Shown one piece after another: positions 145 through 35,339 of a stretch of DNA of 40,475 nucleotides. The notes below the pieces were generated by a model. That model was not told the DNA's origin and did no database searches. It saw only the letters and a program-made list of their open reading frames with translations. The stretch is taken from IMG/VR virus record IMGVR_UViG_3300044591_000754, positions 1 through 40,475 of that record; one strand, given 5' to 3'. The position numbers and the translations under genes are program-made. Each line of letters opens with the position of its first letter. Position 1 is the stretch's first letter. Source of the stretch: a virus.

Positions 145-734
145 CCCTGAACACTCTTGACACGTACGACATCACCGATCGAAAGACCATGCGCTGCGGC
201 GGTCGTGACAACGCCAGGATTCGCTGCCGTAATTCCGCTCACGTTTACCGTGGTAACAGCAGCACCGATATTTTTGATCCGCATTCGCGTGATGAACGAC
301 GGAGTGGCCGCAGCCGTTCCGGTTTGGGTGTTCGCCACGAAGATGCCGTGGCCGTTCAAACCGTTACCGTCGATTGTCAAGTCCGAAATTGAGGCGGCGT
401 CGGTAGCTGTGTTTGACAGCAAGATGACGTTAGCACTTCCGCTTGCCCTTTTGATAATGGAGGCATTGCGGCTTGCTCCGAACGCATACTGGTTTGTTAG
501 CGTATGCCCGCCAGTAGTCATGTAAGTCCCTGCCGGGAAATACAGGGACTTGCCGACCGCTGCGGTAATCGCAAGATTGATGGCCGCCGTGTCATCCGCC
601 ACGCCATCACCGACCGCGCCGAAGTCCTTGACGCTCACGACATCGCGGAGTTTGTCGAGCGCAGTGCGCTGGGTCGCGCCGGTGCCGGCGGCAAGGAAGG
701 TGACCTGTTCAGAGGTTGGCTTGGTCATGGGCAT
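1..734 (-). CDS. Tail spike, pectate-lyase-like fold, N-terminal part (split by window ends)
   Basis: This is the 5' part of a 679-residue protein that continues in frame at 39026-40475. The start is ATG at 734-732, or ATG two codons later at 728; an in-frame stop at 747-749 excludes any earlier start. Residues 31-44 read DVVSVKDFGAVGDG, followed by a DDTAAI stretch. This is the opening signature of the pectate-lyase-3 (parallel beta-helix) domain found in many phage tail spikes and depolymerases. A motif AAHGLSIGDVVRV follows before the junction. The protein lacks the long virion-binding N-terminus of the neighbouring spike (799-2874), so it may attach to that protein. The ribosome binding site is weak, and the gene lies 64 bp downstream of the first spike, so coupled expression is likely. 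A depolymerase activity is a family inference; no catalytic residue can be assigned by eye. Confidence 0.85.
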   Translation of the reverse strand, partial: MPMTKPTSEQVTFLAAGTGATQRTALDKLRDVVSVKDFGAVGDGVADDTAAINLAITAAVGKSLYFPAGTYMTTGGHTLTNQYAFGASRNASIIKRASGSANVILLSNTATDAASISDLTIDGNGLNGHGIFVANTQTGTAAATPSFITRMRIKNIGAAVTTVNVSGITAANPGVVTTAAAHGLSIGDVVRVKSVQGIDTTAPAFVEWLDAGSGYTPGTHSLTLTYVSGQTATTYGIADIVVGG

Positions 735-798
735 CGTGGGAGTCCGTCAAGCGAGTAACAGTTCGTCGTTGTGAGGGAAGGTCATAGGAGTTGGTGTA

Positions 799-2874
799 TC
801 ACTTGATAGAGCGGCTCACTTCAACCCACTGGTTCGAGATTCCGGGAGGAATCTTCATCATTGTCACGACCGATGACGTGGTCGGTGTCACGTTCGTCGA
901 TCCAGCAAGTCTGAACGCGGCAGAATCCTGAAGCGTCGTATTTCCGTTGCTGAAATACAGATGCACGAACTGACCTTCGGAACCACCGGCAAATCCTGTG
1001 ATTGTCGTGGCGGAACCGTTCTGCACGGAAAGCACGCTCACTCCGTCCACGTTTGGGGTCGCCCCGGTCGATGCGTTGCTCGTAAATGTGAGAACGACCT
1101 CGCGTGGCTTGAAGCCATCTGCATCGCTGAACTGTGCAATCGCAGTTGCGGAATCACTCCGCATGATGTTTAGCACGCCGTTTGCATCAGCCAGCAGATA
1201 CGGCGCGGAGATGATTGTCCCACTTGCGTCTGTTGGCCGCAATTGCAACGCCGAGTATTTTGATGCTCCGCGTGATTCGCCGCGAAATACGAAGTCGCCT
1301 TGCGTGTCTACCACTGACACACGAAAGGTCATTGACGCATTGCCGGCACCAGAGTTCCAAGCAATTCGTCCATCCTCTCGCAAGCCCATGAGCGTCCGGT
1401 CAGCGGAATCGACCCACGTCCAGTTCACGCCGCCGTCGCTGACCGTTCCGCTGGTGTGCGTTGGCCCGGTTGCTCCGGTGGTTCCGGCGGTCGCCGAAAC
1501 GTATACCTGCGATGTCGGCCCGACGCGATACGTTCCGATGGTGATGACCTGGCCAGACGCCCAGTATTCCCAGTTGTTTGCGATGGCGACCCACGGAGCA
1601 AGCGAACGCCATGTTCGCTCCCACATGTCTATGCTAGAAATCTTGCGATAGCCTTCAAAGGCAGCACCTCTAAATCCGCCGCTTGCAACCTGTCCAGTAT
1701 TCCATTGAATTGCTGCCTGCCTCGCTGCGGCAGACGCCGTCCCTGCGGTTCCGAAGTTGTTCAACGTCAGGACTGGGAAGTGTCCGCTGTTGATCGCAAA
1801 CGTCGTGTCATCGGCAGCGGTGTCACGCGATGAAATTCCGATGTGCTTGGTATACGAAAAGTCATTGATTACGGAGTAATCAACCAACACGACATCGACA
1901 GGGAATGTTGCGTTGGCAAGTAACGCGGCACGATCAAACTTGACGTTATAAGGGATTTCAATCAACTTCTGGCCGCTGTTGATTGCCATGCTCAAAATGG
2001 CAGCGGTGTTATCTGTCACTCCATCGGCTACCGCCCCAAAGTCCTTGACGCTGACCACGTCACCGAACTTGCTCGCCGCGCTGCGGGCGACCGCGCCCAT
2101 GCCGCTCGGCGTGTAAGTGACGAGGTCCGCGCTCGTCGCGCCGATGCTGCTCGTCAGGTAGTTCACGAACTCGATGTTGTCGGTCCCGGCCACCGGAGCC
2201 TGCGAGAACGTCAGCGTCGTGCCGGCAATCGTGTAGGTGCTGCGCTGCTGGTATACGCCGCCGATAAACACTTGGGCACTGTTGCCGAGCGCACCCGGGT
2301 CACTCGCCAGCGTGAACACCGTCTGCGACCCCGTACCGCTGAACACCTGACGAGTGATCGTCGTGGGCGCTCCGCTTGAGCCGGACACCACCGCCGTAGG
2401 AACGCCATTGGCGTCGAACGCCAAGAACGAGTTCGCCCGCTGCGCGGCGGTCGGCAGCTCCATGTTCAGGTTGCCGTCCGAGATCGGCCCCTTCAGGCTG
2501 CGACCAACGTCCTCGGACATCTGCTGGATCTGGATCGTGGCCCGGTCAAGCGCGTCCGTGATGACCTCGGGGTAGAACCCGCCCTGGTTCGTCAGGTCGG
2601 TCGGCTGAAGGTTGGCGATGTCCGACGTGATCGTGACCGTGCTCGTCGCCGAGGCGGCCACCGTCAGGTTCACCGTGCCGCCCGGGTTCGTGTTCTGGTT
2701 GCCGTTCAACGCGACCGTATAGTCGCTGCCAAGAACAAGCGACGTTTCAACGCCCGTTGAAGTGTTCAGGCGCACGACCTCGAGGTCGGCGGAGGCGAAC
2801 ACCTTGAACGTAAAGGGCAACGCGGTGCCGCTCAAGAACGGGCCAGCGATGCGGGTAGTGCTGCTAATCGTCAT
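799..2874 (-). CDS. Tail fibre/spike with virion-binding N-terminus
   Basis: This 691-residue protein probably attaches the receptor-binding apparatus to the tail. Residues 1-130 resemble the N-terminal domain of T7-type tail fibres: an FKVF strand, an LGSDYTV/LNGNQ stretch with PGGTV, and the helix ATIQIQQMSEDVGRSLKGP at 112-130. Residues 172-240 form a common fibre repeat (RQVFSGTGSQTVF ... FIGGVYQQRSTY). At 272-285 it carries DVVSVKDFGAVADG, the start of a pectate-lyase-like beta-helix and almost the same as residues 31-44 of the second spike. The start is ATG at 2874 behind GAGGAA. It follows the giant ejection-protein gene by 55 bp. The region after residue 300 has lower GC than the first half, which fits a stable adaptor joined to a variable receptor-binding part. 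Confidence 0.85.
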   Translation of the reverse strand: MTISSTTRIAGPFLSGTALPFTFKVFASADLEVVRLNTSTGVETSLVLGSDYTVALNGNQNTNPGGTVNLTVAASATSTVTITSDIANLQPTDLTNQGGFYPEVITDALDRATIQIQQMSEDVGRSLKGPISDGNLNMELPTAAQRANSFLAFDANGVPTAVVSGSSGAPTTITRQVFSGTGSQTVFTLASDPGALGNSAQVFIGGVYQQRSTYTIAGTTLTFSQAPVAGTDNIEFVNYLTSSIGATSADLVTYTPSGMGAVARSAASKFGDVVSVKDFGAVADGVTDNTAAILSMAINSGQKLIEIPYNVKFDRAALLANATFPVDVVLVDYSVINDFSYTKHIGISSRDTAADDTTFAINSGHFPVLTLNNFGTAGTASAAARQAAIQWNTGQVASGGFRGAAFEGYRKISSIDMWERTWRSLAPWVAIANNWEYWASGQVITIGTYRVGPTSQVYVSATAGTTGATGPTHTSGTVSDGGVNWTWVDSADRTLMGLREDGRIAWNSGAGNASMTFRVSVVDTQGDFVFRGESRGASKYSALQLRPTDASGTIISAPYLLADANGVLNIMRSDSATAIAQFSDADGFKPREVVLTFTSNASTGATPNVDGVSVLSVQNGSATTITGFAGGSEGQFVHLYFSNGNTTLQDSAAFRLAGSTNVTPTTSSVVTMMKIPPGISNQWVEVSRSIK

Positions 2875-28032: not shown

Positions 28033-28602
28033 ATGCCTCGCCACGCCAATCTCCCGTTTCACCTGTATGTGCATGTGTGCAACACGGCCCTCGGGCCGAC
28101 GATGCCCGCCGGCACGACCCGTGGCATCTGGCACGCGATCTACGCCCGCCCCGGCCAGATCGTGATGGCGCACGTCCTGCTCGAGACGGGCGCGGAATGG
28201 TGCGGCGTCCCGCTGCACAAGCTCGCGCACGACCCCAAGGCGTTTGAGCGCAGCCCGCTGCCGGGGTTCTGCGAGCCGTCACACCTCCAGCCCTGGGGCG
28301 CGATGGGCGACCATGTTGAGGCGATCCACCTTGAGTACCTCGAGGGAATCAATGTGATGGGCACGAGCGCCGAGCGCGGGTTCTGCGGCCGGCATACCGG
28401 GATCGTCATTGACTGGAGTGACGGGTTCAGTCGTTACCCGCAGGAGCACAAGCCGCTTAACCTCATTGAGCGCGTGGACGGCAGGTTCATCCTGTTCCCA
28501 AACAACTACTGCCGATTCCTCGACAAGCACTTCACGTCGTGCAAGCGCGACGCCGACCTCGCCAAGTACCGCCGTGGCGAGGATGTGTACTGGGAGGAAT
28601 AG
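28033..28602 (+). CDS. Hypothetical protein, first gene of the plus-strand arm (189 aa)
   Basis: No family was recognised. The protein is rich in aromatic, His and Cys residues, with segments ETGAEWCGVPLHKLAHDP, LQPWGAMGDHVEAIHLEYLE and FCGRHTGIVIDWSDGFSRYP. There is no signal peptide or membrane helix, and the many conserved-looking Trp/His/Cys positions suggest an enzyme or metal-binding fold. ATG at 28033 has no ribosome binding site, while TATCAT ends seven bases upstream, so translation may be leaderless. It is the best-expressed candidate for a host-takeover or control protein by position only. Confidence 0.7.
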   Translation: MPRHANLPFHLYVHVCNTALGPTMPAGTTRGIWHAIYARPGQIVMAHVLLETGAEWCGVPLHKLAHDPKAFERSPLPGFCEPSHLQPWGAMGDHVEAIHLEYLEGINVMGTSAERGFCGRHTGIVIDWSDGFSRYPQEHKPLNLIERVDGRFILFPNNYCRFLDKHFTSCKRDADLAKYRRGEDVYWEE

Positions 28603-32520: not shown

Positions 32521-32706
32521 ATGCAACCGGGGAGAGGAGAGCACGAGGAGGACGTAGTGGACCGCGTCCGCGTGAGCGGGACCGATGATCCACTTACCAT
32601 CGAACTCATGCAGGAGGTCGTGTACCTGCGTCTTGAACTGGCGAAGGCAATGAAACAAGTGAACTCGTTCATCCTGCGGGAGACGAACCACAGGAGGCGA
32701 GAGTGA
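32521..32706 (+). CDS. Hypothetical small protein (61 aa), cassette gene
   Basis: ATG at 32521, behind GAGGG, gives MQPGRGEHEEDVVDRVRVSG; a GTG at 32557 has an equally good GGAGG site and would give a 49-residue form. The rest is helical (LMQEVVYLRLELAKAMKQVN) and ends in a basic tail. It is not recognised. It overlaps the RusA-like gene by 4 bases (GTGA). Confidence 0.6.
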   Translation: MQPGRGEHEEDVVDRVRVSGTDDPLTIELMQEVVYLRLELAKAMKQVNSFILRETNHRRRE

Positions 32707-33113
32707 TTTTCTTTATCGTTCCCGGAGAAGCTGCCCCCCAAGGATCGAAGCGTGCCGTGCGTTCAAGGAGCGGGCGCATCCTGCTGCTTGAGTCATCGTC
32801 CAAGGTCAAGCCGTACCGCGCCGTGTTCGCGCTGGCGGCGCGTCAGGCGTGGACCGAGCCGCCGGCGACGGGGACTGTGGCGGTGGAACTGCTGTTTCGG
32901 TTCGTGCGTCCCGCCAGCCACTACACGGCGAAGGGTGCGCTGAAGGCGACCGCGCCGGCTGCGCCCAGGCGTCCCGACCTCGACAAGGCATGCAGAGCTG
33001 CCTTGGACGCCATGACCGGGGTGGTCTACGCCGACGATTCGCAGGTCGCCATCCTGTCGGCGTGCAAGGAGTACGGGGACCGCGCTGAAACGATTGTGAA
33101 GGTTTGGGCGTAG
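32703..33113 (+). CDS. RusA-like Holliday junction resolvase (136 aa)
   Basis: It begins MIFFIVPGEAAPQGSKRAVR, the usual strand and QGSKR loop of RusA proteins, and carries the acidic cluster PDLDKACRAALDAMTG plus VVYADDSQV (Asp92, Asp94, Asp102, Asp111, Asp112), matching the metal-binding aspartates of E. coli RusA. It cuts branched DNA, so it should resolve replication or recombination intermediates before packaging. GTG at 32703 has a strong AGGAGG site. It lies upstream of Bet and Gp157, with which it forms the phage recombination set. Confidence 0.9.
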   Translation: MIFFIVPGEAAPQGSKRAVRSRSGRILLLESSSKVKPYRAVFALAARQAWTEPPATGTVAVELLFRFVRPASHYTAKGALKATAPAAPRRPDLDKACRAALDAMTGVVYADDSQVAILSACKEYGDRAETIVKVWA

Positions 33114-33126
33114 ATATCATGCGACC

Positions 33127-33717
33127 ATGCGGATCGAGCACAAGTACAATCTTCTTCAGCGCAAAGTCGCCGAGTTGTTGTCAACTCCGCGGACGAATGC
33201 AAGGGCGGCAAGGGCAAGCCATAGCCACGACGTTTCCGATCTAGAACAATCTGGGGCTACAACAAATCAGGTGCTTGCGTGGGGAGGGCTGCGCTGGGAG
33301 CCCACGAATGTCACGAGTCCTGCGCCGTCGCTGTCAAGCGCTTCCGCATTCCTCGCGTCGAATTTGACGATGTCCGCTGCGAACACGTGGTATACGGGTC
33401 CGCAGGTGACTCTTGCCAGTGGCACCTGGCTTGTCATGGCGAGCGCGACCGTTGGCCGCACGGCGACTACGGCCGGCCATTACAACATCCGCATTTCTAA
33501 TGGCCTGACGCACTACGCGAGTGTCCAGCAATATCACGCCAGCGTCGCGAACAACTACGCGGCCTTGAGCTGCAATGCGATCATCACGCTAACGGCTTCC
33601 ACGACCATTGGCCTGTATGCGTCAGGGACGGTAACGGCCAACGTGCTTCGAGCGGATACCCCGAACAATCCGAGCGGAAATAACGCTACCGGAATTGTTG
33701 CCGTCAAGATCGCTTGA
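33127..33717 (+). CDS. C1q-like fibre protein in the early arm (196 aa)
   Basis: Residues 1-35 are basic; [20 protein letters not shown] and [11 protein letters not shown] (33-61) match the short linker found in phage fibres and collagen-like proteins. The remaining 130 residues are beta-rich ([20 protein letters not shown] ... [18 protein letters not shown]) and fit a C1q/TNF-like jelly roll, ending GIVAVKIA. Such domains form trimeric tips on virion fibres. It is unusual to find one on the early strand. ATG at 33127 lacks a ribosome binding site; TATCAT lies six bases upstream. Lower GC than its neighbours suggests acquisition. Confidence 0.75.
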
Positions 33718-33742
33718 CAAGCCCAATACGATCCCGTATAGT
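33714..33742 (+). promoter_or_regulatory. Consensus sigma70 promoter of the bet operon
   Basis: TTGACA (33714-33719), 17-base spacer, TATAGT (33737-33742). The -35 overlaps the stop codon of the C1q-like gene. The leader to ATG 33800 can form a small hairpin TCGGGC/GCCCGA around 33756-33771. It is the strongest promoter seen in the window. Confidence 0.85.
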
Positions 33743-33799
33743 TCTCCTGTCGTGATCGGGCGCGTGCCCGAGGCGACGAGTCACGAGAGGAGAATCACG

Positions 33800-34813
33800 A
33801 TGACTGCATTGGCACGGCTGGATGACGAGAAGCGCGACCTTCTCGCACGCACGCTCTGCAACGGCGCTAGCCGGGACGAGCTCGACCTGTTCTTCAACAT
33901 CTGCGAGCGCACCGGGCTCGACCCGTTCGCTCGGCAGATTTACGCGGTCAAGCGGTGGGACAAGCGGGCAGGCCGCGAGGTCATGCAGACGCAGGTCAGC
34001 ATCGACGGCTTCCGCCTGGTTGCCCAGCGCAGCGGCGAGTACGCGGGTCAGACCGCCGTCGCCTACTGCGGCACGGACGGCAAGTGGGTGGACGTGTGGC
34101 TGCACGATGAGCCGCCAGCGGCCGCCCGCGTCGGCGTCTACCGCAAGGGGTTCGTCGAGGCGGTCGGTGCTATCGCCCTGTTCCGCGAATACGCGCAGCG
34201 GTCGAAGGACGGCTACCTCACGGGCATGTGGGGCAAGATGCCGACCGTGATGATCGCCAAGTGTGCCGAGGCGCTCGCGCTTCGCAAGGCGTTCCCTGCC
34301 GAACTGTCGGGGCTGTATACGCCCGAGGAGATGGGGCAGGCCGACAACCCGCCGGCGGCACCCGCCGTCCCGGCCGTCGCTGCCCTGCCCGCCCCGGCAC
34401 CCGTGGAAGCCGCCACGATGCCCCAGAACGCGCCCGTGGCCGAGGATGCCCCGAAGCCCGCCCGCAAGCGCAAGGCCGCGCAGGAGGCACCTGCGCCCGC
34501 CCAGGCCGTCCCGGCAGCGCCCGCGCCCGCTGACGCCTACCCAGAGGAGTACGAGGGGTTGTTCCTGATCCAGCGCGTGGTGCGCCGTCCCGGCAAGCCC
34601 ATCGCCGTGCAGGCCGCCGGCGAGCACGGCACCGCCTGGATCGCCACTACCGTCGCCGAGTACGCCGACCTGTGCGAGCAGGCCATCGACAGCGAGCTGC
34701 GGCTCGACATCGCCCGCGTCGGGGGTGCGCTCACCATCATGCGCGTGATCCGCACCGCCACCGCCCCAGCACCCGTCGCCGCCGTCATCGACGCCGACGA
34801 TCTGCCCTTCTGA
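33800..34813 (+). CDS. bet: Bet/RecT-family single-strand annealing protein
   Basis: Residues 1-180 are a Bet domain: [69 protein letters not shown], then [18 protein letters not shown]. The protein anneals single strands and promotes recombination, working with host or phage nucleases. Residues 181-248 form an Ala/Pro-rich linker with a KRK cluster; 249-320 form a second small domain; and the chain ends DADDLPF, very like the acidic tip of bacterial SSB. The ATG at 33800 has AGAGGAG; the open frame upstream overlaps the promoter and is rejected. No exonuclease partner was found nearby. Confidence 0.93.
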
Positions 34814-34832
34814 CCATACGAGGAGATACACC

Positions 34833-35339
34833 ATGAACCTCTACGCCATCCAGACCGAAATCGCCACCATCGTCGAGGCCATCCTCGACGGCGCTGGAGA
34901 CACCGCCGAGGCCCAGGCCGCACTCGACGAGGCGCTCGCCGGCCTCGACGAGGAGCTCGAGGCCAAGGCCGATGACTACGCCGCCCTGATCCAGTCGCTC
35001 CGCAGCCGCGCTGATAGCCGCGCCGAGGAGGCCAAGCGCATGCGCGACCTGGCCGCCGCCGACGAGGCGCTCGCCGACCGCCTCAAGCAGCGCCTGAAGG
35101 ACGCGATGGAGGCCAGCGGGAAGGGCAAGCTCGAGACGGCCCGGTTCCGCCTGTCGGTGCAGGCCAACGGCGGAGCGCAGCCGCTTGAGGTCACCGTGCC
35201 GCCCGAGCAGCTCCCGCAGAAGTACCAGGCCGTGCGCGTCGAGGCCGACAAGACCGCGTTGCGCGAGGCGCTGGCAGCGGGTGCTACGATCCCCGGTGTG
35301 ACGCTCCTGCCACGGGGCACGAGCCTGCGGATTCGCTAA
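34833..35339 (+). CDS. Gp157-family protein
   Basis: This 168-residue protein has an N-terminal acidic helical region (EAQAALDEALAGLDEELEAK, then DDYAALIQSLRSRADSRAEE), which is the usual Gp157 pattern. It is followed by RLKDAMEASGKGKLETARFR, then PEQLPQKYQ and a C-terminal strand. Gp157 proteins are common next to Bet/RecT or Erf genes; a role in phage resistance or recombination has been proposed for the family. The start ATG at 34833 has GAGGAG upstream, 19 bp after bet. It is the last gene before the terminator. Confidence 0.9.
   Translation: MNLYAIQTEIATIVEAILDGAGDTAEAQAALDEALAGLDEELEAKADDYAALIQSLRSRADSRAEEAKRMRDLAAADEALADRLKQRLKDAMEASGKGKLETARFRLSVQANGGAQPLEVTVPPEQLPQKYQAVRVEADKTALREALAAGATIPGVTLLPRGTSLRIR

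Follow-up and report, generated by a model that had tools for sequence, protein, structure and literature searches.

The window, by which we mean the whole 40,475-nucleotide stretch of viral DNA that was analysed, encodes on its plus strand a 337-residue annealase (33800..34813, stop codon included) that combines a RecT core with a predicted OB fold and an SSB-type tip. The coding frame runs from 33800 to 34810 with the stop codon at 34811-34813, and the translation ends in VIDADDLPF. Residues 13-184 (33836..34351) form the RecT annealing core, which matches PF03837 with an E-value of 8e-30, exceeding the curated Pfam cut-off; the protein is not a member of the ERF family PF04404. In PHROG the annealase matches phrog_2780 (RecT-like annealing protein) with an E-value of 2.6e-64. 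The full-length AlphaFold model has a low-confidence core (mean pLDDT 57.6), and its top PDB fold match in Foldseek is Redbeta (7ujl, E 9e-5). Judged by its family matches, the annealase is a member of the RecT/Redbeta superfamily. The core is followed by an Ala/Pro/Lys-rich linker (residues 185-243; 34352..34528; pLDDT below 50 over residues 181-243), by the OB-fold domain (residues 250-317; 34547..34750) and by the acidic tip DADDLPF (residues 331-337; 34790..34810), the sole SSB-type C-terminus found among the window ORFs. The translation, the PF03837 match and the models confirm the original prediction of an annealing protein with an Ala/Pro linker, a small second domain and a DADDLPF end, and the RecT core and the tip do lie in one chain, as had been proposed. 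A long antisense ORF at 33704-34834 on the minus strand was taken as a composition shadow of the GC-rich annealase gene and rejected.

The small second domain was modelled separately on residues 244-337, using 36 relatives. This model reveals a compact predicted OB fold with pLDDT of about 95, followed by a low-confidence tail (about 55-62) in which the DADDLPF tip sits. Its elements follow the order β1-β2-β3-α-β4-β5, which is the OB-fold topology, and residues 250-317 are confidently predicted to adopt this fold. OB proteins dominate the top Foldseek matches in the PDB (RPA32, RecO, LEF-3, mitochondrial SSB, LysRS and AspRS), the matches themselves being modest, with E-values starting at 3e-3 and TM-scores no higher than about 0.6. 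Neither the OB domain nor the C-terminal region matched a Pfam or PHROG family. A PDB sequence search with the OB module found no relative, and the same search with the full annealase profile found only a weak match to Redbeta. Profile comparison detected no sequence relation between the OB domain and SSB: when hhalign set the module against an alignment of phage SSBs, the tip octamer alone aligned, IDADDLPF to INTDDLPF. Nor is there evidence of Gp2.5 in sequence or fold, as phrog_112 gave no match and the top Foldseek matches are other OB proteins. Because the tip follows an OB fold, the tail of the annealase is SSB-like in architecture, beyond its last residues. The OB domain could nevertheless bind protein rather than DNA.

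Pfam and PHROG scans of the 41 window ORFs identified capsid, portal, terminase and Bbp16/Bbp19-like proteins, HNH nucleases, RusA and Gp157. The Pfam matches of these ORFs include no SSB, polymerase, primase or helicase, in agreement with the view of a genome that carries no replication proteins, and the PF00436 profile has no match in the window record. The RusA Holliday junction resolvase gene (32703..33113; PF05866, E 2.8e-17) lies upstream on the same strand as the annealase gene, and a Gp157/Mu Gam-like end-protection gene (34833..35339, plus strand; PF05565, E 1.4e-35; phrog_253, E 8e-35) lies directly downstream. Between RusA and the annealase, a plus-strand ORF of 196 residues (33127-33717), without Pfam or PHROG match, reads like a virion/tail-fibre-type domain; this stretch is mostly missing from three relatives (L045, L061 and L064). 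Another plus-strand ORF, at 28033-28602, matches phrog_3704 (ferredoxin; moron/host takeover category) with an E-value of 6e-9. The portal protein is 72-74% identical to those of Limnohabitans phage DC33 and phage zth2-2 and 64% identical to that of Bordetella phage BPP-1, which suggests that the host belongs to the Burkholderiales. The virion relatives DC33 and zth2-2 each encode a separate SSB-like ORF ending ADMDDDIPF, and the RecT-like protein of DC33 has no tip; in BPP-1 the annotation lists Gp2.5, polymerase, primase and helicase. In a comparison of 100 virus records, many of them incomplete and related, PF00436 was present in 0 of 36 tip-bearing and 6 of 64 tip-less records (p = 0.08). 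Mutual exclusion of the tip and a phage SSB was dropped as an argument, since this p-value is too weak.

We asked how often such a tip, defined as [LIVMFGH]PF after at least two acids, ends an annealase. This is the case for 13/87 annealase C-terminal clusters compared to 12/1,643 unique neighbouring ORF ends (Fisher 2e-11, a value uncorrected for phylogeny and therefore indicative, as annealase clusters are not phylogenetically independent). Ten sequences examined from the tip-bearing control ORFs are mostly SSB or other ssDNA-binding-type proteins. Together with the alignment of the octamer to phage SSB tips, this enrichment bears out the earlier assignment of the tip to the SSB type. An unselected scan of viral contigs for DDLPF followed by a stop codon gave 80 loci and 77 ORFs of at least 60 residues. 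These ORFs belong mainly to SSB families (PF00436 with 12 members, other PHROG SSB, Gp2.5, DUF669, Enc34 and gp32), primase-helicases and helicases, and two are members of the present annealase family. Long viral ORFs with a DDLPF end include L196, L178, L135, L209 and L187, and the family counts of the scan indicate that they probably include primase-helicases and ResIII/DEAD-type helicases.

Relatives of the annealase differ by synonymous changes in the codons for the final [LVIM]PF (CTG/CTT/CTC, GTC/GTG/GTA, CCC/CCG/CCA and TTC/TTT). The hydrophobic-Pro-Phe-stop ending is kept, whereas the acidic positions drift (DADD, PADD, DGSD, TTE, SQH), and some tips are weakly acidic (TTELPF, ESQHIPF), under the usual SSB standard. 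The ending ATKVPF of L043 passes a loose tip rule and is doubtful. Taken at the level of sequence, the tip is far from chance and under protein-level constraint.

A search with only the C-terminal 137 residues of the annealase returned proteins whose N-terminal half is unlike the window RecT core. Clustering by C-terminus defines a group of 65 sequences, many of them near-duplicates, that carry the module of linker, OB fold and tip on three cores: RecT (26), a divergent RecT-like core (29) and ERF (10). A tip with at least one acid is kept in 57/65 of them (20/26, 27/29 and 10/10, respectively). The divergent core matches phrog_561/4171 and is carried by L045, L048, L061, L064, L099 and others, and the ERF core (PF04404, E 6.5e-19) is found on relatives L108-L117. 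The exchange of cores can be followed in the DNA. Between the window and L048, identity is 89% as far as position 33797 and 91% from 34373 onward, with no homology in the interval; the start codon of the annealase at 33800 lies just past the first break, and the junction at 34373 falls within the linker. The core cassette 33798-34372 is replaced in L045, L048, L061 and L064 with near-exact boundaries and flanks that are about 83-91% identical. The same core-only exchange separates L101 (RecT core) from L099 (divergent core), with about 95% identity on both sides. Exchange of the core with the flanks kept in the DNA implies that the tail is a unit retained while the annealing core is replaced, and these natural exchanges represent ready-made chimeras. 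The module had no match in a protein search of 50,697 cultured-phage records, so no isolate that carries it was found.

The ending is also found outside this module. A second OB-like C-terminal type spans three cores, with tips in L038 (RecT, NDDDLPF) and L262 (ERF, DDDVPF), and some members of a third OB-like type on ERF end in DDDGIPF (L273-L275), SELPF or VEIPF. The same ending occurs on the zinc-ribbon-like C-termini of L299 and L310; C-terminal types that look helical had no tips.

The expectation that relatives would share the ending holds for the 57 module sequences that keep the tip but fails for others, both with and without the module. Within the module clade the tip is missing from two lineages, L018, L019, L103 and L332, which end in EEATHV, and L020-L022, which end in GEVVK. 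Relatives L029-L033 and L035-L036 have neither module nor tip, and the tip is absent from most RecT proteins. Since several relatives lack it, the tip is optional and not essential. A genome contig scan gave 11 distant RecT proteins with ends that lack such a tip, and no host was obtained from it. None of the ERF proteins in 16 sampled cultured phages with ERF ends in a tip. Nine SSBs that neighbour ERF in sampled cultured phages were compared, of which seven end in the tip and two hold the motif internally.

The architecture of the annealase can be compared with several known systems. The likeness to lambda Redbeta lies in the PF03837 core and in Redbeta being the best PDB fold match of the full model. 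In Redbeta, host SSB and lambda exonuclease are bound by the C-terminal domain, which is a bundle of three helices (PMC8303780), and RecT proteins recognize the C-terminal residues of SSB (PMC10711431). Redbeta thus reads the SSB tip with a helical domain, whereas the window annealase has a predicted OB fold and carries the tip itself. A helical C-terminal domain of the Redbeta type is not found in it, nor does PF03837 require one. The original name Bet is loose, fitting the superfamily but not the C-terminal domain. Bacterial-type SSBs (PF00436) resemble the annealase tail in the OB fold, the disordered tail (both predicted here) and the final acidic hydrophobic-Pro-Phe tip, which in the annealase is of the acidic [ILV]PF form. 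In contrast to bacterial SSB, the OB domain here shows no sequence relation, is not matched by the SSB OB-fold profile PF00436, and is fused behind an annealase core. T7 gp2.5 and the Enc34 ORF6 SSB also combine an OB fold with an acidic C-terminal tail, and SSBs of this type use the tail to contact replication proteins (PMC5686142). The PHROG name of the Gp2.5 family covers both binding of ssDNA and annealing. However, Gp2.5 is a single OB protein, while the window annealase adds a separate RecT core and an OB module that matches nothing in Pfam or PHROG; the window phage has no polymerase or helicase of its own that we could find.

A parallel in gene content is the pairing of an annealase with an SSB. 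Erf-ssb modules are accompanied by Gp157 and Gam genes in Firmicutes phages (PMC8093625), and stimulation of Sak4 by the HK620 SSB requires the NDYPPF tail of that SSB (PMC5928155). In erf-ssb, recT-ssb and sak4-ssb pairs the same activities stand beside Gp157/Gam, but in two genes, whereas here they are found in one chain. Domain shuffling has been proposed for Firmicutes single-strand annealing proteins (SSAPs), in which an extra C-terminal domain is common to the Sak4, RecT and Erf/Sak3/Rad52 groups (PMC8093625). That shuffled domain is a helix-turn-helix similar to the Redbeta C-terminal domain, in contrast to the predicted OB fold and SSB-type tip described here. A search of open-licence PMC papers found no report of an annealase with an SSB-type tip. 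What is new here is a RecT-family annealase with an SSB-like OB-plus-tip tail, in a module common to two other cores.

The annealase seems to combine in a single chain the work that most related phages divide between two neighbouring genes. Our preferred explanation, to which we assign a probability of roughly 0.6, is that it is an SSB-mimicking annealase, a collapsed pair of annealase and SSB, and draws host SSB-binding proteins to the annealed DNA of the phage. RecT homology, conservation of the tip, sharing of the module across three cores and no detectable phage SSB are established by the sequence comparisons, and the original interpretation is partly supported. We infer that the OB fold binds ssDNA, that the tip binds host partners (from established SSB biology) and that the annealase has a role in starting replication. 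The RecT core would anneal, as follows from its family, and the OB fold would stay in contact with ssDNA or organize the filament. The tip on phage recombination intermediates would offer the same handle as host SSB, so that host SSB-interacting proteins such as PriA, the chi subunit of Pol III, RecO, RecQ, RecG and primase would be brought directly to the annealed phage DNA. The host replisome could then start recombination-dependent replication of the phage, with RusA and Gp157 acting beside the annealase.

It is rather unlikely that the tip instead acts as an internal switch. In that case it would fold back onto the surface by which the OB domain or the core binds ssDNA and would be displaced by ssDNA, tuning specificity and assembly while recruiting no partners. 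Competition between acidic SSB tails and ssDNA for a shared surface has been reported (Marintcheva 2008, cited in PMC5686142), and the tail of Enc34 ORF6 influences ssDNA specificity (PMC5686142). Such a switch would need charge more than an exact terminal Pro-Phe, but here it is the hydrophobic-Pro-Phe-stop that is conserved while the acids drift, and the same ending is found on different OB types and on the zinc-ribbon-like C-termini. Docking of a phage protein from a neighbouring gene, such as Gp157 or RusA, in place of host proteins appears improbable. The Gp157 gene does lie directly downstream, and there is precedent for a phage SSB tail that binds a phage protein, that of the HK620 SSB with Sak4 (PMC5928155). 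Nevertheless, a Gp157-like start also follows the annealase in the tip-less L020, L022, L029, L032 and L035, so this neighbour does not track the tip. An accidental, functionless acidic ending of a Pro/Ala-rich tail would agree with the loss of the tip in some close relatives, but we consider it very unlikely given the enrichment (p about 2e-11), the motif being kept despite synonymous codon variation, and its recurrence on three cores and several C-terminal types. Least likely of all is a decoy function, by which the tail would titrate SSB-interacting host nucleases and helicases (RecQ, ExoI, RecJ) off phage DNA. This reading has the same binding logic and an adjoining Gam-like end-protection gene in its favour, but a decoy would not need a lasting linkage to the annealing core through repeated core exchange.

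An extension of the preferred recruitment model, which we put forward tentatively and rate somewhat short of an even chance, is that the linker, OB fold and tip constitute a transplantable SSB-mimic cassette. This cassette would move between three cores in phages with no SSB of their own and would turn annealases that normally read the tip of host SSB into annealases that display it. Host replication-restart factors would be recruited to annealed DNA, and recombination might let the phage replicate although it has no gene for an SSB, helicase, primase or polymerase. The dependence of annealases on host SSB, through binding of its tip, restricts recombineering to certain hosts (PMC10711431). 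If recruitment by the tip is correct, an annealase that carries the tip would follow the opposite logic and supply its own recruitment signal. The annealase would also enable a direct test of whether recruitment by an SSB tip suffices to start recombination-dependent phage replication.

Some other C-termini met in the survey differ from the module. In Desulforudis MAG contigs (L124-L126), tip-less RecT proteins have long C-terminal extensions that resemble one or two OB-type domains, and L124 and L126 also encode an SSB-like ORF ending DDDFPF or DEPIPF. ERF-type proteins of T1-like and other phages (L407, L403, L412 and L406) have short tails with Phe at or near the end (SITNFE, SDFNEF, PIEQF and QIDTF), possibly another kind of C-terminal peptide. 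Upstream of an ERF gene with OB fold and tip, L250 encodes a 101-residue protein (679-981, plus strand) that ends in PDTDIPF, an ending also seen in L256 and L258; this could be a small protein of the ssDNA-binding type and a second carrier of the tip in phages with an ERF core.
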